Origin: Rhodospirillaceae bacterium
GTDB taxonomy: Bacteria > Pseudomonadota > Alphaproteobacteria > Rhodospirillales > Rhodospirillaceae
Assembly (NCBI GenBank): GCA_020852595.1
Contig: JADZAK010000020.1
Coordinates: forward strand, 1-54,681
Length of the DNA: 54,681 nucleotides
Direction of reading: 5' to 3'
Under the pieces are notes generated by a model. It saw only the letters and a program-made list of their open reading frames with translations, was not told where the DNA came from and ran no database searches. The position numbers and the translations under genes were made by a program. This document shows positions 47,161 through 54,681 of the stretch, piece by piece; the first letter of the stretch is position 1; the number at the start of each line of letters is the position of its first letter.

Positions 47161-47237
47161 GTCCCCGTAGCTCAGCTGGATAGAGCACCAGATTCCTAAT
47201 CTGGGGGTCGTGCGTTCAAATCGCGCCGGGGACGCCA
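47161..47237 (+). tRNA. tRNA-Arg (anticodon CCT)
   Basis: The 77-base gene reads GTCCCCGTAGCTCAGCTGG at its 5' end and ends in the TpsiC arm, acceptor CGGGGAC, discriminator G and encoded CCA. The anticodon stem-loop CAGATTCCTAATCTG gives CCT. The integrase gene lies about 100 bases downstream, so the 3' half is the likely attachment site of the element, and the tRNA was regenerated intact on integration. Confidence 0.96.
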
Positions 47238-47270: not shown

Positions 47271-47340
47271 AAAATCCTTGCATTGCGGCAATTGCGCGCT
47301 AACGTGCGCGAATCAGGCCCAAAGCAATGGAGTGCGGGGC

Positions 47341-48468
47341 GTGGCCTCTATTCAGAAGCGCGTCGGGCGCAATGGTGACATCACATTCCGCGTCCAAGTG
47401 CGCCTTCGCGGCGCGCCGGTGGAGCGCGCGACTTTCACCTCCAAGACTGCGGCGAAGCATTGGGCTCAGAAGATTGAGACCGATATTCGGGAAAACCGAC
47501 ACTTCAGGACTGCTGAAGCGCGACGGCGTACAGTGGCGGAGCTGATCGACCGCTACATTGAACAATGGCTCCCGCAGAAAGCGCCTTCCGTTGTCACCCA
47601 GCGGTTCCAGTTGCTGTGGTGGCGGGAAGAAATCGGCGACCGAATTCTTGCGGAACTGCGGCCCGACGTATTTATCGACGCCCGCACTGAACTGAGTAAG
47701 CGACTGGTGCCGAAGAAGGGCGCGGACGGGAAAACCACCCAGGTCAAAATCAGTTCGGGGACGATCAACCGCTACTTTGCGGCGCTCTCCCCCGTATTCA
47801 CTGTCGCCGTGAAGGAACTTGGCTGGCTGCACGAAAATCCATTGCGGACGATTAACAAGCTCAAGGAGCCCAAGGGTCGCGATAGGTTCTTAGACAAGCA
47901 CGAAATCAAGCAACTATTGGCGGCCTGCAAGAACAGCAAGAACTCGTACATTCATTTGTTCGTGTTGCTGTCCCTGTCCACGGGAATGCGGAAGAACGAG
48001 GTCCTGGGGCTCCGATGGGCTGATTTTGACCAGGACATGAAACAGCTAACGCTCCACGATACGAAGAACGGCGAGAAACGAGGAATTCCTGTCGCCGCTC
48101 AGGCCCTCGCTGAATTGCTGCGCGTTCGCAGCAAGGCGGAGAAAAAGCTAAAGGCCGAGAAAAGGCCGAAATCTGATTTAGAAGGCCATCACATCTTTCC
48201 TAGCCGCGCTGGGGGCGATGAGCCCTTGGACATTCGTGTTCCGTGGGAAACTGTGCGAGACGCGGCGAAGCTCAGCGACTTTCGGATACACGATCTGCGC
48301 CATACAGCAGCGAGCTACCTTGCGATGAACGGCTCAAGCCTTTTGGATATTGCCCACGTTCTTGGCCATAAATCGCTCGACATGGTGAAGCGGTATGCAC
48401 ACCTTTCGCCACAGCATACTGCAAAGACGTTAGAGCAATTAGGCACAGCTCTTTTCGGACTTAAGTAA
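47341..48468 (+). CDS. Tyrosine recombinase (phage-type integrase)
   Basis: The product is about 375 residues from GTG 47341, with GGAG 8 bases upstream; a TTG at 47278 or GTG at 47332 is possible but less well placed. The N-terminal arm-binding/AP2-like region is followed by a SAM-like core-binding domain and the catalytic domain. Catalytic residues are visible: Arg in STGMRKNEVLGLRW, HDLRHTAASYL, and LGHKSLDMVKRYAHL with His and nucleophile Tyr. It should integrate and excise the element at tRNA-Arg(CCT). Confidence 0.95.
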   Translation: MASIQKRVGRNGDITFRVQVRLRGAPVERATFTSKTAAKHWAQKIETDIRENRHFRTAEARRRTVAELIDRYIEQWLPQKAPSVVTQRFQLLWWREEIGDRILAELRPDVFIDARTELSKRLVPKKGADGKTTQVKISSGTINRYFAALSPVFTVAVKELGWLHENPLRTINKLKEPKGRDRFLDKHEIKQLLAACKNSKNSYIHLFVLLSLSTGMRKNEVLGLRWADFDQDMKQLTLHDTKNGEKRGIPVAAQALAELLRVRSKAEKKLKAEKRPKSDLEGHHIFPSRAGGDEPLDIRVPWETVRDAAKLSDFRIHDLRHTAASYLAMNGSSLLDIAHVLGHKSLDMVKRYAHLSPQHTAKTLEQLGTALFGLK

Positions 48469-48516: not shown

Positions 48517-48816
48517 TTGATTGATCAAAAAAGGCCACGAGGACGGCCGAAGATTCCCTGGGACCCGTACTACGGGGACGAGCTTCAGAAGCGCCTAGAA
48601 TCAGGCATCGCCCTTCCAACGGTAGAGCAAGAGGCAGCGGCCCTTGCGGAGTGGGGGAAAACAATCGCGTTTCCAAAGATAGGTGAGAAGGAAACGGGTC
48701 CTTTAAAGAAGGCTCAGATTCGACAGCGTATAAACAAGCGGCACAACGGAGCATCAGGTTATAAACAGGCTCGTATGTTTCACCGCCATAAGCTCGGCAT
48801 GAGCGACGAAGACTGA
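48517..48816 (+). CDS. Small basic protein with RGRPK (AT-hook-like) motif
   Basis: I do not recognise a named family. About 99 residues are encoded from TTG 48517, with AAGGGG and AGGAG in the preceding 15 bases. The N terminus KRPRGRPKIPW is AT-hook-like and suggests minor-groove DNA binding. The body is charged and helical (GDELQKRLESGIALPTVEQEAAALAEWG) and the C terminus is basic (KAQIRQRINKRHNG). Position between the integrase and the excisionase-like gene suggests a role in control of the element. Two AT-rich palindromes follow it. Confidence 0.6.
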   Translation: MIDQKRPRGRPKIPWDPYYGDELQKRLESGIALPTVEQEAAALAEWGKTIAFPKIGEKETGPLKKAQIRQRINKRHNGASGYKQARMFHRHKLGMSDED

Positions 48817-48852
48817 TTTAATTAAATGGCGATTTGAATTAATTGAATCGCC
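48816..48852. promoter_or_regulatory. AT-rich palindromes before the excisionase-like gene
   Basis: ATTTAATTAAAT (48816-48827) is a perfect 12-bp palindrome. Immediately after, GGCGATT (48828-48834) and AATCGCC (48846-48852) are inverted arms around TGAATTAATTG. The AATTAATT core resembles the operators further right in the element. The site could regulate the next gene or act as a terminator for the previous one. Confidence 0.45.
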
Positions 48853-48916
48853 TATTCGACCACCGACGCGATATCCGCGGCACTAGGAATGCCAAGCGAT
48901 TGTCACGGAGGACAAG

Positions 48917-49186
48917 ATGTCGGATTTGGTCGCCGCCCCTTCCAATTTACGTATGCTGACCGTTGAAGCCATGGCAAAGACGCCACCATGGTGTAACTAC
49001 TATTCGAGGAGCGGCTATCGGCACCTTGTCTTCAATGCAAAGCCGATCACTGACAGCTCCGGGCGAATTGTTGTGCCTGGAAACGGCCTGCTAGAAGCGG
49101 GCGTAATAATCCGCATAGGGCGAAAAGTTTTCTTCGATCTGAGTCGCTTCGACGAGTGGCTCACAGCACATCGCGTTACTGGCTAG
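48917..49186 (+). CDS. Excisionase-like small DNA-binding protein
   Basis: The product is 89 residues from ATG 48917, with GGAGGA upstream. The layout LTVEAMAKTPPW, GNGLLEAGVIIRIGRKVFFDLSRFDEWL is a MerR/AlpA/Xis-type winged helix: an N-terminal helix-turn-helix, a beta-wing (IIRIGRKVFFD) and a last helix with DEWL. Such proteins bend DNA at attachment sites and/or activate integrase. The inserted loop (NYYSRSGYRHLVFNAKPITDSS) is longer than in classical Xis. Context next to the replication genes supports this. Confidence 0.7.
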   Translation: MSDLVAAPSNLRMLTVEAMAKTPPWCNYYSRSGYRHLVFNAKPITDSSGRIVVPGNGLLEAGVIIRIGRKVFFDLSRFDEWLTAHRVTG

Positions 49187-49198
49187 GCCCGACTTGCC

Positions 49199-49876
49199 AT
49201 GCCTATTTTTTTCTCGAAGAAACCTTCCACGCCGGTGGGTATGCAGCCCCCTATGCCGTTTGCGTCCATCGTCGCGGGAACGCCAGCTATTGAAGCTGCT
49301 CAGCTATACGCGAAGCACGGAATAGTCCCGCTGCCCGTTCCCGTTGGCCAGACTGCGCCGGCCTTTAAGTGGGGCAATGCAAAGCTAACGCCCGCGAGCC
49401 TGCTGGAATGGTTCTGTGAACCTTGCAACATCTCAATTCGCACGGGTTCGCAGTCAGGGGAACTGGTTGATGTTGACGTAGATAACCCCGGAGCGCGATT
49501 GATAGCTCCGCATATCCTCCCACACACCGATTGCGTTTTTGGTCGCGCTCCGCCTTTCTCGTCCCACTACATGTACCGCGTCGATCAAACCATTAAAGCG
49601 AAGAAGTATTCTTTTCAGGCTGGCCCGGCGCTTGGCGTCATAGTCGAAATCCGGGCGGAGAAGCACCTCACTATTGCCCCACCCTCCTTGCATCCTAAGG
49701 GTGGCACGGTCCAGTTTGCTCCAGGCAAAGCGGGGCTGCCGCCACTGATCCAGCGAGACGTTCTCGAACGAAAAGTAATGCTGTTGGCGATTGCCACAGC
49801 GATCTATGAGGTTTGGCCAGAGAAAGCCGGGTACCGCCAAGACCTCGCGCTCGCATTGGCGGGAGCTCTCGCATGA
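49199..49876 (+). CDS. Bifunctional DNA primase/polymerase (prim-pol), N-terminal type
   Basis: The product is 225 residues from ATG 49199. The Prim-Pol fold pattern is recognisable: AAQLYAKHGIVPLPVPVGQTAPAFKWGN, then SIRTGSQSGELVDVDVDNPGARLIAPHIL with the metal-binding DVDVD, then GVIVEIRAEKHLTIAPPSLHPKGGT. It can prime and extend DNA in replication of satellites and plasmids. It overlaps the helicase gene by four bases (ATGA), so primase and helicase are co-translated as a two-piece primase-helicase. Confidence 0.82.
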   Translation: MPIFFSKKPSTPVGMQPPMPFASIVAGTPAIEAAQLYAKHGIVPLPVPVGQTAPAFKWGNAKLTPASLLEWFCEPCNISIRTGSQSGELVDVDVDNPGARLIAPHILPHTDCVFGRAPPFSSHYMYRVDQTIKAKKYSFQAGPALGVIVEIRAEKHLTIAPPSLHPKGGTVQFAPGKAGLPPLIQRDVLERKVMLLAIATAIYEVWPEKAGYRQDLALALAGALA

Positions 49877-51162
49877 GTGCCCTTACCCCAACCGAGATCG
49901 AAGAGGTTATTTTCCATGCCGCCAAAGCTCGGGGCGATGAAGAAGCTCAGAAGCGAAAAGAGGCAGTTAGTGCGACCGTCGCAAAGAAAGCTATTGGGGA
50001 GCCAGTGTACGGCTGGCCATCGGTGGCCGGACTCCTTGGCGAGGCCGGCGCTTGGGCTTTACCAGCTCTTCAAAAGCTTAGTGGAGCTTCCTGGTCATCA
50101 ATAGCTAAGCCCGTTCTGGACTTGGTTGACGCGACAGCCATACAGCTCACAGAACCTGATTGGTTGATCAAAGATTGGCTGGTACTTGGCGGATTCGCGC
50201 TTCTGGGAGGAAACCCCGGCGACTACAAATCCACAATCATTGACACTTTTGCCGCCCGCATCTCGACGGGAATGCCGCTCTGGGACGGCATCGCGCCTAT
50301 CCAAGGAAACGTCATCATAGCTAATGCCGAAGACCCGGCACACGTTGTAAAGGCTCGGCTGCTCGCCGCAGATGCGGATCTCTCGAAGATCAAATTTCTT
50401 CATGGAGCCAATGCTGGCGGCTTGCAGCAAATGTTTGCAATTGAAGAACACCTCGCCGCGCTGGCAAGCGCCGTGAAGGAGACGGGCGCAAAATTCGTAT
50501 CTCTTGATCCTTTGCTTAGTTACCTCGGACTTAAAACAAACTCGTACTCGGATCACCAGGTCAAATGGGCGCTAACGCCTCTGTTGAAGCTGGCCGAGGA
50601 ACTCAAATTCACGGCGCTAGGTGTGTGGCATTTTAATAAAACAGCCGGGAAGATTGCCCTTCATAAGGGCGGTGGTTCAATCGGGTTTGCAGGTACAGCG
50701 CGCACTGTATTGCAGGTAACGAGAAACCCTGATGACCCGTTTCAAAAAGAGTATGTGCTTTCCGCGCCAAAGATGAGCCATGGCCCTAAGCCCAAGGGTA
50801 GAATCTTTGGCATTGAAACTGTGGCGGTAAACGAGGGACAGGCGTCGTGTTCGGTCGGGAGAATCAAGTGGACCGGAATATCTAATTTTACCCCAGATGA
50901 GCTTGTCGCGAAGACAGAGGCTCTTTCCGCACCGAGTGAACTAGGCAAAGCCATGAAGTTTCTTACGGATACGCTTAGCGCAAGCTCCGCCCCAAGCAGC
51001 GAGATTTTCGAAAAAGCAGCAGTGCTTGGTTTCTCTGAGAAGACAGTAAAACGAGCGGCTACTGAACTGGGGATTCAGAAAATGAAGCAGAAGGGAGTCG
51101 AGCATGGCCCATGGATATGGTCGCTCGCTGATAAGCATGAATCCCCCAAGGGTCCGCAGTAG
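49873..51162 (+). CDS. RepA-like AAA/RecA-fold replicative helicase
   Basis: The product is 429 residues from ATG 49873 (ATGA overlap with the prim-pol). The P-loop is GNPGDYKST at residues 113-121, where the Gly before the catalytic Lys is Tyr, a variant of GxxxxGK. Walker B is in AKFVSLDPLLSYLG. Downstream KWALTPLLKLAEELKFTALGVWHFNKT and GGGSIGFAGTARTVLQVTRNPDD match AAA_25/RepA-type helicases of mobile elements. The C-terminal 90 residues may be a winged-helix (SEIFEKAAVLGFSEKTVKRAATELG). It should unwind the element's replication origin; no origin was identified. Confidence 0.85.
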   Translation: MSALTPTEIEEVIFHAAKARGDEEAQKRKEAVSATVAKKAIGEPVYGWPSVAGLLGEAGAWALPALQKLSGASWSSIAKPVLDLVDATAIQLTEPDWLIKDWLVLGGFALLGGNPGDYKSTIIDTFAARISTGMPLWDGIAPIQGNVIIANAEDPAHVVKARLLAADADLSKIKFLHGANAGGLQQMFAIEEHLAALASAVKETGAKFVSLDPLLSYLGLKTNSYSDHQVKWALTPLLKLAEELKFTALGVWHFNKTAGKIALHKGGGSIGFAGTARTVLQVTRNPDDPFQKEYVLSAPKMSHGPKPKGRIFGIETVAVNEGQASCSVGRIKWTGISNFTPDELVAKTEALSAPSELGKAMKFLTDTLSASSAPSSEIFEKAAVLGFSEKTVKRAATELGIQKMKQKGVEHGPWIWSLADKHESPKGPQ

Positions 51163-51191: not shown

Positions 51192-51352
51192 CCTTGGGTT
51201 CCTTGCAGACTAGAATCATAGATGGCGAACATCTGCATTCGGATTGTAGGCGAATGAGACAATGATTTTTTTTGCCTCGGACAACCAGGTCAAGCCTCCC
51301 AAGGTGCCCAACAAATTTGGAATATACCTGTCGGAGAGATTGCACGGAGAAT

Positions 51353-51366
51353 TGCAATTAATTGCA
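51353..51366. promoter_or_regulatory. TGCAATTAATTGCA palindrome, copy 1
   Basis: A perfect 14-bp palindrome 13 bases before ATG 51380. Identical 14-mers occur at 51864-51877 and 54455-54468. At this position a bound protein would block translation initiation-region transcription, so a repressor operator is the simplest reading. Confidence 0.65.
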
Positions 51367-51379
51367 GGCAAACAAGTAC

Positions 51380-51679
51380 ATGAGTCGTAGCGATAACGGA
51401 TACTGGCTTGCAAAGAAGTATCAGCGCGAGGCGGCGGAGTTCGCGTTGAGCATGAAACCCATTTTTGTCGCGCTAATTAGAAAAGGATGTGTTGGCCCAC
51501 GCTCAATATCAAGGGAGTTGAACCGGCTTTCTTACCCGGCGCGGAGAGGAGGAGTTTGGTATCCAGCATCCGTGAAAAGGGTTCTGGATACTTTGGACCT
51601 TTCCAACCTGATCGTTGAGGAACGCAAGCGCACCCGAAGACAGTTCGAGCAAATTCTTAAGGGCCTAAGTTCGAACTAG
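51380..51679 (+). CDS. Small protein resembling a serine-recombinase DNA-binding domain
   Basis: The product is 99 residues from ATG 51380; a TTG at 51362 is within the operator palindrome. The segment AAEFALSMKPIFVALIRKGCVGPRSISRELNRLSYPARRGGVWYPASVKRVLDTLD strongly resembles the recombinase domain that follows the catalytic part of large serine recombinases (alphaproteobacterial type). The catalytic resolvase domain is absent, so it is either a domain relic or a stand-alone DNA-binding regulator. Its own operator suggests that it is active. Confidence 0.6.
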   Translation: MSRSDNGYWLAKKYQREAAEFALSMKPIFVALIRKGCVGPRSISRELNRLSYPARRGGVWYPASVKRVLDTLDLSNLIVEERKRTRRQFEQILKGLSSN

Positions 51680-51863
51680 GGAATTGTCCGGGACAGCAAA
51701 TGCGCCCTTTTGGACAGAAGAATGATCCTGCCATTTCACTCCGCAAAATATGGAGAAAGCTCACATCCAAGGGTGGATAGCGCCTTGTCTGTAACGGGCA
51801 AATCCCATGGTGATATAGTACGAGGTGGTCTCGTCCAATTGTGCGGTAAGTAGTTCGAAAATT

Positions 51864-51877
51864 TGCAATTAATTGCA
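51864..51877. promoter_or_regulatory. TGCAATTAATTGCA palindrome, copy 2
   Basis: The palindrome extends to 20 bp (51861-51880, arms ATT/AAT added on each side) and lies 36 bases before ATG 51917 of the DUF4238 gene. It is the most extended of the three copies. The rest of the 237-base gap (51680-51916) shows no gene. Confidence 0.68.
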
Positions 51878-51916
51878 AATCGCGAATGTGCGCGCAGAAG
51901 CGCAGCACTATAGGAC

Positions 51917-52802
51917 ATGCTGGACAGATACGTGAGCAATCACAAGCGAAACCATTACGTGCCTGAGCACATCGTGGAACGTTTTGCGCATCAAGACGGA
52001 AAAATTCGCTTTTTCGACAAACGACGACCTGATCGAATCCTGGCTACTAGCGCCAAAAACCTCTTTGTCGAAGGACACTTCTACACTCAGTTTTCAGTCG
52101 ATGGCTCCAGGGACATTTCTGTCGAAGAGCAATTGGCTGCGCTTGACGGTAAGGCGAAGCACGTAACCGACCATATTGTCTCTGCGGCACGTAGAGACGG
52201 GTCGTTGAAATTGACTTCTGACCAGCGCGCGATCTGGGACGAATTTTTTTATCGCCAATGGCGTCGCATTCCGGAAGCCTTCCAACGAAATGATAGCTAC
52301 GTCAATTTCGATGAAAGCGTAGACGCAGTGGTGGCAGAACTTGAGGCGCTAGGCCGGCCCCTCACGCCTTCTGAGCGATCTATTGTCCTGAGCCAGGAGG
52401 GGCGAAAAAGGATACGTCAGAACGCAAAAGCGGCAAGCATCATCGCGAATGGCGATCACATCACGTCTGTCATGGCCGAGAAAGGGCTTTGCGTCGCCTT
52501 AATACGCAAGCCAACCAAGAGCTTTTTGATCGGAAGCTCCCCTATCGTGAAAAATGACATTGCCTGGGCGAACCCACATTCTCGATCCAATTGTTGAGAT
52601 GTGGTTCCCAATCGCCCCAGATGTCGCAGTGTCACCGGGCTTCAAGAAAGGTGAGTATCGCGTAGTACTCGCTGAAGATCGTCAAATCCGACATCTAAAC
52701 GAAAGCATATTCCGTCAGAGCGCAGTGGTAGCGAGCAGGTCGGAGGAATTAATCCGGTCGATTGCTGGGATTCGCATAGGAAAGACAGCTTCGCAGTCCT
52801 AG
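51917..52802 (+). pseudogene. DUF4238-type protein, frameshifted
   Basis: The first frame (51917 to a stop at 52597) gives 226 residues starting with the DUF4238 hallmark KRNHYVPEHIVERFAHQDGKIRFFDK. The last 10 residues lose the family pattern. The +1 frame (from about 52570) continues with THILDPIVEMWFPIAPDVAVSPGF and HLNESIFRQSAVVASRSEELIRS, which is the expected C-terminal block, up to 52802. So a single-base shift lies about 52560-52580. Whether it is a real mutation, a programmed shift or a sequence error is undecided. The family has no known function and occurs in genomic islands, sometimes near defence genes. It ends overlapping the convergent AlbA_2 gene. Confidence 0.72.
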
Positions 52803-53959
52803 TACCTCTCTTGCCAGCTTCCGTCATCGTCAAAGTTGGGCGATCGATCATAGCCGTAAGCTTGCCATACAAGGTCGAATAGTGGGCGGAGAAGTGTGTG
52901 AGCGGAGGCAGATAGATTATCCACGGCGACTTCGGGCAGGATCAAATGATCGCGATCAAGGGGTTCTGGGGCCTCCATCATAGCTCTTTGCCGACTGACA
53001 CCTAGCGTGTAGTTCCGCACCGACAGAAGTGAAACGAAAATATAAATCGGTGGCAGTATAGCTATGTGCCGACAATGAGCGAGGACTTGTCCTAGGCCAT
53101 TTATGAGAGCGTGTTCCAAAGAGGTGCTCGGGATTACATTTTCTCCGCCTCTTCCCAGAACTGCCACTAACTCAGTCGCACCAGTACGAAATAACTGCGT
53201 ATAGGATGACGAAGGATCGTCACCCGAGACGGCGTAGTTCACGTGGCCATCGAGGTTGCGACGATAGCTACTGCTACTGGCGCGTCCAGGCGGGCGAACT
53301 TGAATTAGTGCATCACGATCTAAGGAAGCTAAGAGGTCATTACCTTCCGCGTTGGCCAAGGGAATGGTGTGGAGCACTACGACGCCGCCGTCGGCGAGCG
53401 GCACTGGCGTGTCACGCGCGAGAATTTTACCGAGACGATCTTCTTTAAAACGCCGAATCTTGTCGGCCTGACCCTCGCTTTGCAAAAACGCCCTTCTGAC
53501 TTCACCCACGTCGAGCGCGTATTTGCCGGAGCTATTGCGCCCGTGAAATTTGGCGTCGCGAGTGCCGCGATGGGGGGCGTTCCAACTTTGGCGTATACGC
53601 ACGATCAACACCCACCGCCCTCCGGTGAGGTCTACAGCGTGCGTATCGACCGGAGGCAGCTTCGGCTCCACCCCAGTCTGCAAGATATTATTGATGCGCT
53701 GAATTTCCACGTCCACGTTTGGACAAGTGAAGCCGCAAACCGTGGTCGGGAGACCAGCGGTTTCCTCGATGCCGAGCACCAAATCTCCGCCGACAGTGTT
53801 AGCGAAGGAAAGAATGTCGGCACACAGCTCTCGCTTGTTCTCCTCAGACGATCCCGGGAGATCGCGCTTGTAGTCTATGGTCTTTCCCTCGCGAACCTGG
53901 TTCGCCAAAAGATTGTCGAGGTCCGTTCGGGTGATTTCGTGGAGTGCTCTCGGAATCAT
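52799..53959 (-). CDS. AlbA_2 (Schlafen-like) putative DNA-binding protein
   Basis: The product is 386 residues. The N-terminal 150 residues are an AlbA_2/AAA_4-type domain: LLANQVREGKTIDYKRDLP, ELCADILSFANTVGGDLVLGIEE, VLIVRIRQSWNAPHRGTRDAKFHGRNSSGKYALDVGEVRRAF. The domain is related to Schlafen folds, and the C-terminal 200 residues are unrecognised. Family members are found in regulators and in antiphage loci; activity here is unknown. It has a strong Shine-Dalgarno (GGAGAGGTGAT just before 53959) and follows an unknown gene by 28 bases on the same strand, so they are probably an operon. Confidence 0.75.
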   Translation of the reverse strand: MIPRALHEITRTDLDNLLANQVREGKTIDYKRDLPGSSEENKRELCADILSFANTVGGDLVLGIEETAGLPTTVCGFTCPNVDVEIQRINNILQTGVEPKLPPVDTHAVDLTGGRWVLIVRIRQSWNAPHRGTRDAKFHGRNSSGKYALDVGEVRRAFLQSEGQADKIRRFKEDRLGKILARDTPVPLADGGVVVLHTIPLANAEGNDLLASLDRDALIQVRPPGRASSSSYRRNLDGHVNYAVSGDDPSSSYTQLFRTGATELVAVLGRGGENVIPSTSLEHALINGLGQVLAHCRHIAILPPIYIFVSLLSVRNYTLGVSRQRAMMEAPEPLDRDHLILPEVAVDNLSASAHTLLRPLFDLVWQAYGYDRSPNFDDDGSWQERY

Positions 53960-53987
53960 ATCACCTCTCCTCTATAGGCCTGCCGTC

Positions 53988-54371
53988 TCACAATACTTTT
54001 ACGACATATGCTTCGTGATAGCCGTTGTCGCCTTCTGTGAACCACTTGTGGCACCGCTTGCCACCGTCGATCAGCGCCTCCTTGCCGAGATAAGTTGCGA
54101 CGACGACCGGCGTATCGTCGCGGTGCGGGGGATCGCTACGTTCGCGCGGAGCGAGACTACGCAATTCCATCTTCCGCCGACGTTCAAGCGTCACCTGCGT
54201 ATTTGAAGGCGTCAGGATTGGCGCGCCATCGGCTATCTTATCCCCACGGAACGCGCGTAGATTCTTTCGGAACAACCGGTTCAATATTTCACGAGGACCG
54301 TCACCCGATTGTCCCACGGGATGGTGCTTTACGACTTCGGCCGCAGCATCAAACATCTCTTCATTCGTCAT
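53988..54371 (-). CDS. Unknown 127-residue protein upstream of AlbA_2 gene
   Basis: I do not recognise the family. The N terminus (NEEMFDAAAEVVKHHPVGQSGDGPREILNRLF) is helical; the middle is polar with LTPSNTQVTLERRRKMELRSL; the end has DDTPVVVATYLGKEALIDGGKRCHKWFTEGDNGYHEAYVVKVL with beta character. There is no membrane segment or signal. It starts at 54371, its stop is 28 bases before the AlbA_2 start, and the operator palindrome copy 3 lies 83 bases upstream. Likely a small partner or antitoxin-like gene of the pair, but this is only inferred from position. Confidence 0.58.
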   Translation of the reverse strand: MTNEEMFDAAAEVVKHHPVGQSGDGPREILNRLFRKNLRAFRGDKIADGAPILTPSNTQVTLERRRKMELRSLAPRERSDPPHRDDTPVVVATYLGKEALIDGGKRCHKWFTEGDNGYHEAYVVKVL

Positions 54372-54454
54372 TTCTGCATTCCACTAGCGATTTCCTTATC
54401 AGGTAGTCGCTTTTTTCTTCCATGCCGCATGGTCAAAGCTAACGTCATACGAAA

Positions 54455-54468
54455 TGCAATTAATTGCA
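54455..54468. promoter_or_regulatory. TGCAATTAATTGCA palindrome, copy 3
   Basis: An identical 14-mer extended to 16 bp (54454-54469). It lies in the divergent gap between the minus-strand operon (start 54371) and the truncated plus-strand gene (start about 54496), so one site could control both directions. Confidence 0.65.
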
Positions 54469-54495
54469 TCGGACCGACGCAAGAAGAGAGGCAAT

Positions 54496-54681
54496 TTGAC
54501 CTGCGGGTATCTGAGTGACAAGTGGCTGGCATCGTCCTCGCTGCAGAAGGCGATCCGACGCGGCGACACAAAGATCGCTCAGGAGGCAGGAAGTGCTCTC
54601 CTTTCAATGGATCGAGCCATGTTTTGGAGGCGGCTGGCTTGTACGGCGATTGAGGATGTTGCGCCAACCGACCCTGACTTA
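54496..54681 (+). CDS. Truncated gene at the window edge, RarA/MgsA C-terminal-like
   Basis: The frame is open to the end of the window. From TTG 54496 (AGAGG upstream) it reads LTCGYLSDKWLASSSLQKAIRRGD, KIAQEAGSALLSMDRAMFWRRLACTAIEDVAPTDPDL. The SxLQKAIRRGD, FWRRL and EDV pattern resembles small element-borne proteins related to the C-terminal domain of the RarA/MgsA replication-associated ATPase. An in-frame ATG at 54454 overlaps the palindrome. Only 62 residues are visible. Confidence 0.65.
   Translation, partial: MTCGYLSDKWLASSSLQKAIRRGDTKIAQEAGSALLSMDRAMFWRRLACTAIEDVAPTDPDL

Follow-up and report, generated by a model that had tools for sequence, protein, structure and literature searches.

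Three identical perfect palindromes as predicted operators of an integrated element in a Rhodospirillaceae genome

In the Stl circuit of Staphylococcus aureus pathogenicity islands (SaPIs), and in the circuits of P4 satellites and of integrative and conjugative elements, an element-encoded master regulator controls integration, replication, and cargo. A comparable arrangement is suggested by the contig of a Rhodospirillaceae bacterium analyzed here (contig C20, taken whole as the window of 54,681 nucleotides, in a genome of 3,847,547 bases and 259 contigs). Near its right end lies an element integrated at a tRNA-Arg (CCT) gene, in which the 14-bp palindrome TGCAATTAATTGCA occurs in three exact copies, each shortly ahead of a gene. 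The likeness to the SaPI Stl and P4 circuits lies in a proposed element-encoded regulator acting on replication and cargo; the difference is that no Stl-like or CI-like repressor was recognized among the proteins of the element in the window. An element-specific operator set appears to be of an already known kind, and the present case would be an added example.

Among characterized regulators of defense genes, CapW is reported to bind, as a homodimer, a palindromic site in the promoter region of its own defense operon (PMC9122588), and the locus described here resembles it in having palindromic sites upstream of a defense-type gene. The CapW sites given in that account are imperfect, 19–24 bp long, and limited to one operon each (PMC9122588), whereas here perfect and identical dyads precede several genes. 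Like CapW, BrxR is a WYL-domain repressor of defense operons (see also PMC9122589, PMC9122601); here none of the 10 element proteins scanned against Pfam matched a WYL family, the element being cut at the contig end. RptR, a small helical dimer encoded by the first gene of a phage-defense island, is described as repressing its own promoter through repeated palindromes (PMC12255303). Its sites, as reported, are three direct repeats with 6-bp TAGCTA sites at one promoter (PMC12255303), whereas here 14-bp sites of different sequence are spread over three upstream regions.

We read the three palindromes, together with two related ones in the gap between the integrase and replication genes (the int-rep gap), as predicted operators of a homodimeric regulator encoded by the element, with a probability of about 0.7. 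This is the best reading because perfect dyads stand before several genes, are absent from the rest of the genome, and are accompanied by a related, conserved gap pair spaced by about two helical turns. A scan of the window placed the three copies as follows.

51353–51366, no strand: site 1, TGCAATTAATTGCA, a perfect dyad of 14 bp
51864–51877, no strand: site 2, TGCAATTAATTGCA, the core of a perfect 20-bp dyad at 51861–51880
54455–54468, no strand: site 3, TGCAATTAATTGCA, the core of a perfect 16-bp dyad at 54454–54469

The first-pass annotation, made from the sequence alone, had held that these copies are private to the element and too many for chance, and both statements are borne out. All three exact copies in the genome fall inside the element, with none elsewhere in the 3,847,547 bases, so the motif is not frequent genome-wide. 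An order-1 Markov model predicts 4.2e-5 copies in the 7.4-kb element and 0.0037 genome-wide, and the expectation for any 14-bp palindrome in three identical copies is about 1e-9. A weaker test by dinucleotide shuffling, allowing up to three mismatches, gave four matches against a mean of 1.00, a number reached in 2 of 100 shuffles. The host part of the window (47 kb) holds one repeated 12-bp palindrome and no repeated 14-bp palindrome, and of the element's five perfect palindromes of at least 12 bp, four are of the AATTAATT/TTAATTAA group. The three palindromes are a real, non-random feature.

With up to two mismatches allowed, the genome contains one extra place (C21:5408; two for the reversed control pattern), and a relaxed, spaced form, TGCAANNNNTTGCA, adds two places across the 3.85 Mb, a rarity matched by its reversed control with three. 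The rarity extends to other genomes. In a family set of 73 and a class sample of 385, both including the window's own genome, the 14-mer was present in 1 of 72 other family genomes (G067, a single copy inside an open frame; reversed control, 0 of 73) and in 3 of 384 others of the class, one copy each (reversed control, 2 of 385); the single 14-mers of G067, G549, G671, and G356 are all isolated copies. The 14-mer was not found as a letter string in open literature texts, where only its inner 12-mer was matched. These counts bear on the possibility that the element has recruited sites of a host regulator, for example one of the MarR type. An AT-rich dyad of 14 bp is the sort of site that many dimeric host regulators could use; however, the genome has no exact copy outside the element and the one family copy lies within an open frame. 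Because an exact host target would be lacking, we consider recruitment from the host improbable.

The sites are also placed close to genes. Measured to the likeliest starts, sites 1, 2, and 3 precede a small helix-turn-helix (HTH) gene by 13 bases (ATG 51380), a DUF4238 gene by 39 (ATG 51917), and an MgsA_C-like gene by 27 (TTG 54496); of the distances first proposed (13, 36, and 26), only that for site 1 stands. An alternative ATG of the terminal gene, at 54454, falls within the 16-bp dyad of site 3. This site also sits 83 bases upstream of a divergent operon encoding a 127-amino-acid (aa) protein and an AlbA_2 protein. An ATCG tetramer lies 3′ of the dyad at five of seven sites, at offsets of 4–8; it was noticed post hoc and not used.

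With sites 13–39 bases ahead of starts, the palindromes might act at the RNA level, forming hairpins in mRNA leaders or offering sites for pairing there. The leader containing site 2 folds moderately (z −1.65) and the stretch 48810–48860 strongly (z −3.33); however, the 14-mer alone gives −2.5 kcal/mol (z −0.86), no better than shuffles, the leaders of sites 1 and 3 fold like shuffles (z 0.26 and −0.41), and the identity of the loop bases points to recognition as DNA. RNA hairpins are disfavored because the folding is weak, and we regard this explanation as very improbable.

Read as operators, site 1 would control the small HTH gene, probably by autoregulation; site 2 would control the DUF4238 cargo gene; and site 3 would control the MgsA_C-like gene, perhaps along with the divergent 127-aa/AlbA_2 operon. 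The likeliest action would be repression while the element is integrated, lifted when it is induced; repression is preferred over activation on general grounds.

A related core at 48816–48852, ahead of an excisionase-like gene, had been pointed out in the first-pass annotation. It is real and consists of two palindromes whose centers are 19 bp apart, near two helical turns.

48816–48827, no strand: palindrome ATTTAATTAAAT, the only exact copy in the window genome, with two copies at the same place in G050
48834–48847, no strand: TTGAATTAATTGAA, a site centered on AATTAATT inside GGCGATTTGAATTAATTGAATCGCC, from the window scan

The genome G050, of the same genus, carries a sister element at tRNA-Ser, with a Rep fragment 65% identical over 68 aa to that of the window element and a 91-aa homolog (53% identical) of its 99-aa protein. 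Two copies of ATTTAATTAAAT, 21 bp apart, follow the 91-aa gene and precede the Prim-Pol gene. A search of 11 same-genus genomes (from 19, including the window's own) located ATTTAATTAAAT once in the window genome (G000) and twice in G050, always at the int-rep gap, and once each at unrelated places in G056 and G058; the paired pattern gave no match in viral contigs. The G058 copy (L078, near 1501) is the center of a longer inverted repeat adjoining an apparent transposase gene, presumably REP-associated.

Comparison with a second sister element, in G293, raises the possibility that the 14-mers are cassette boundaries, short repeats that were left behind, or used, when cargo modules were inserted or exchanged in the stretch from the replication genes to the MgsA_C-like gene. 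The G293 element, also at tRNA-Arg(CCT), encodes an integrase, a 197-aa protein, a 96-aa excisionase-like protein, a Prim-Pol/AAA_25 fusion, a 102-aa frame, and an MgsA_C-like protein. Because G293 runs from AAA_25 through the 102-aa frame, the only one in about 1 kb, to the MgsA_C-like gene, the stretch from the small HTH gene to AlbA_2 is extra relative to its backbone. In the window, sites 1–3 bound exactly the small HTH segment and the stretch in which DUF4238 faces AlbA_2, and the boundary explanation keeps some weight because of this. Against it, a related palindrome lies in the cargo-free int-rep gap and is conserved in G050; the repeats are perfect dyads; and no complete recombinase gene was recognized within the cassettes in Pfam and PHROG scans. 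The DUF4238–AlbA_2 segment has nearly the guanine-plus-cytosine content (0.535) of the part to the left of site 1 (0.542), but that of the small-HTH segment is lower (0.497). On balance we think cassette boundaries, the main rival reading, unlikely. A long imperfect inverted repeat was seen by eye between the Rep and MgsA_C-like genes of G293 (L067, 16200–16320).

The prediction that the motif would recur in related elements and upstream of homologous genes was followed at 29 loci from the small-HTH search, at three of the eight plasmid DUF4238 homologs found, and in 40 kb around the G293 element. The outcome was mixed: related and near copies exist, in G050 and in a further genome, G174, and indirectly favor an operator role, whereas the exact 14-mer appears nowhere among the homologs scanned. 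In G174, TTTTGCAATCAATTGCAAAT, which agrees with site 2 at 18 of 20 positions, is found next to a 113-aa small-HTH homolog (38% over 58 aa). This 20-mer contains TGCAATCAATTGCA, one mismatch from the 14-mer, and is accompanied by two overlapping copies with two mismatches; one further two-mismatch place occurs in G121 (L020). Altogether the 29 loci contain four places within two mismatches, where shuffled sequences average 0.29 and 0 of 200 shuffles reached four. The 18/20 match was likewise reached in 0 of 200 shuffles, and a single place within one mismatch in 8 of 200. These near copies are suggestive of an operator role. The locus (L081, G174:C75, 4204–5824) comprises the small-HTH homolog and then a tyrosine integrase gene with the near copies of the dyad, beside a 532-aa frame that we take to be primase/helicase-like; perhaps it is another element using this dyad.

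Several observations weigh against operators. The exact 14-mer was present at 0 of the 29 small-HTH loci and 0 of the 3 DUF4238 loci and was absent from the G293 element; even with up to two mismatches, none was found at the closest small-HTH homologs (G041, 41%; G057, 38%), at the three DUF4238 plasmid loci, or in the 40 kb around the G293 element. These absences argue against strict conservation of the motif, although the homologs are distant. The G174 copies, found post hoc, lie inside the integrase reading frame, the first just ahead of its SAM-like domain, and they are open to a coding explanation because the 14-mer reads as QLIA codons in open frames elsewhere (L005, L043). Among nine stretches with Rep or small-HTH homologs, a repeated palindrome of at least 12 bp was seen in G050 only. 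The G050 palindrome, ATTTAATTAAAT, differs in sequence from the 14-mer, so that a single regulator serving both is a presumption. No sigma-70-like promoter was recognized at the palindromes (three sites in the scan, 4.2 expected). Since an alignment over 22 nucleotides shows 86% likeness between sites 1 and 2, and 77% for site 3, the 8 bases upstream of the sites may in part be common by descent. Finally, the small HTH protein gave a weak single-sequence structure model (pLDDT 62.5), and a fold search with it returned no significant solved structure (E 6.7 or worse).

This small HTH protein is nevertheless the most visible candidate for the regulator, because its gene comes directly after site 1, it resembles a Recombinase domain, and its G174 homolog lies beside the near copies. 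The Pfam similarity, below the cut-off, is to PF07508 (E 0.0047), the "Recombinase" domain with which serine recombinases bind DNA; five weak plasmid matches are all to recombinase-family proteins, phage matches were not found in the phage search, and the helices of the model are compatible with an HTH followed by a long C-terminal helix. The G174 result raised our estimate for this protein slightly, to a level still somewhat short of even. A regulator encoded beyond the contig end is nearly as likely, and the remaining probability goes to the 89-aa protein, the 99-aa protein, or another.

A single-protein DUF4238 system from a hotspot in P2-like phages is reported to confer strong resistance to T7 (PMC9122126), and DUF4238 is named among defense systems (PMC10855318, PMC12629846). 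By analogy, the DUF4238 gene of the window is probably an anti-virus gene; because anti-T7 activity has been demonstrated elsewhere, the predicted operators may tie defense cargo to control of the element. The gene itself may be broken or mis-sequenced, since its frame stops at 52597 and the C-terminal portion of the domain seems to carry on in a different open reading frame (52554–52802). The AlbA_2 protein matched a candidate defense model weakly and partially (5.4e-5) and has 36 matching plasmid records.

More tentatively, and with clearly lower confidence than in the operators themselves, one regulon might comprise the anti-phage cargo (DUF4238 and perhaps AlbA_2) together with the MgsA_C-like gene and, through the int-rep gap, excision and replication, all under a single element-encoded dimeric regulator and one dyad family. 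If so, defense genes would be switched with the life cycle of the element, and new cargo could come under control by gaining the 14-mer upstream. The regulation of defense cargo on mobile elements has been little studied, to judge from abstracts on defense islands. With a perfect, genome-exclusive dyad ahead of core genes as well as cargo, the link from element control to defense can be tested directly with reporters, and the dyad could serve as a probe for relatives of the element and for its missing part.

The element is organized as follows; after the helicase gene come site 1 and the small HTH gene, site 2 and DUF4238, the convergent AlbA_2/127-aa operon, and then site 3 and the MgsA_C-like gene.

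47161–47237, plus strand: tRNA-Arg (CCT), the integration site (ARAGORN); the sister elements of G048 and G293 lie next to the same tRNA
47278–48468, plus strand: tyrosine integrase (PF00589, 1.9e-31; phrog_1)
48517–48816, plus strand: 99-aa basic protein with PRGRPKIPW; among 316 other genomes of the order, two have homologs, both being of the same genus
48917–49186, plus strand: 89-aa protein, presumably excisionase/AlpA-like, resembling by eye the 96-aa protein that occupies this place in G293
49199–49876, plus strand: Prim-Pol primase (PF09250, 3.2e-12)
49873–51162, plus strand: AAA_25 RepA-like helicase (PF13481, 1.5e-28)
51380–51679, plus strand: small HTH protein, 99 aa (PF07508, as above; phrog_95, 2.8e-4), its start backed by homologs
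51917–52597, plus strand: DUF4238 gene, first part (PF14022, 1.9e-19)
52799–53959, minus strand: SLFN_AlbA_2 protein (PF04326, 1.4e-14)
53988–54371, minus strand: 127-aa protein, an open reading frame upstream of AlbA_2
54496–54681, plus strand: 5′ end of the MgsA_C-like gene, truncated by the contig end

The PRGRPKIPW motif of the 99-aa protein is, we assume, AT-hook-like; the protein was modeled at pLDDT 72.0 and pTM 0.23 and had no match in the plasmid search. No Pfam match above the cut-off was found for the 89-aa protein. The 127-aa protein had no homolog (E ≤ 0.001) among the 316 other genomes of the order, and no plasmid match. Close-relative scans confirmed no relative of the small HTH and DUF4238 proteins in genome contigs, nor of the AAA_25, AlbA_2, DUF4238, and 99-aa proteins in viral contigs. 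The terminal gene, with weak matches in five phage records, is represented by 76 residues that are 37% identical over 71 aa to a 373-aa G293 protein (L067:14225–15343), itself a weak match to PF12002 (5.3e-5, 23.6 bits against a 27-bit cut-off).

The contig end cuts the element, and its right part lies beyond. The rest was not located, because the contig-end sequence had no match besides itself and two short stretches at chance level (E 0.5–0.9), and a search for the 3′ end of the tRNA, allowing up to three mismatches, gave no second copy. The G048 element at tRNA-Arg(CCT) is uninformative on the palindrome because it is interrupted right after its 83-aa homolog of the 99-aa protein (L074, G048:C2, 12070–12206), where its contig also ends; the interruption resembles an insertion sequence, presumably IS3-like. 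Around the small HTH gene, GGACA/TGTCC words beside T-runs were seen by eye in three elements (window 51262–51290 and 51680–51725; L036, 200–300; L037, 1330–1500), and these could mark an origin or another binding site.

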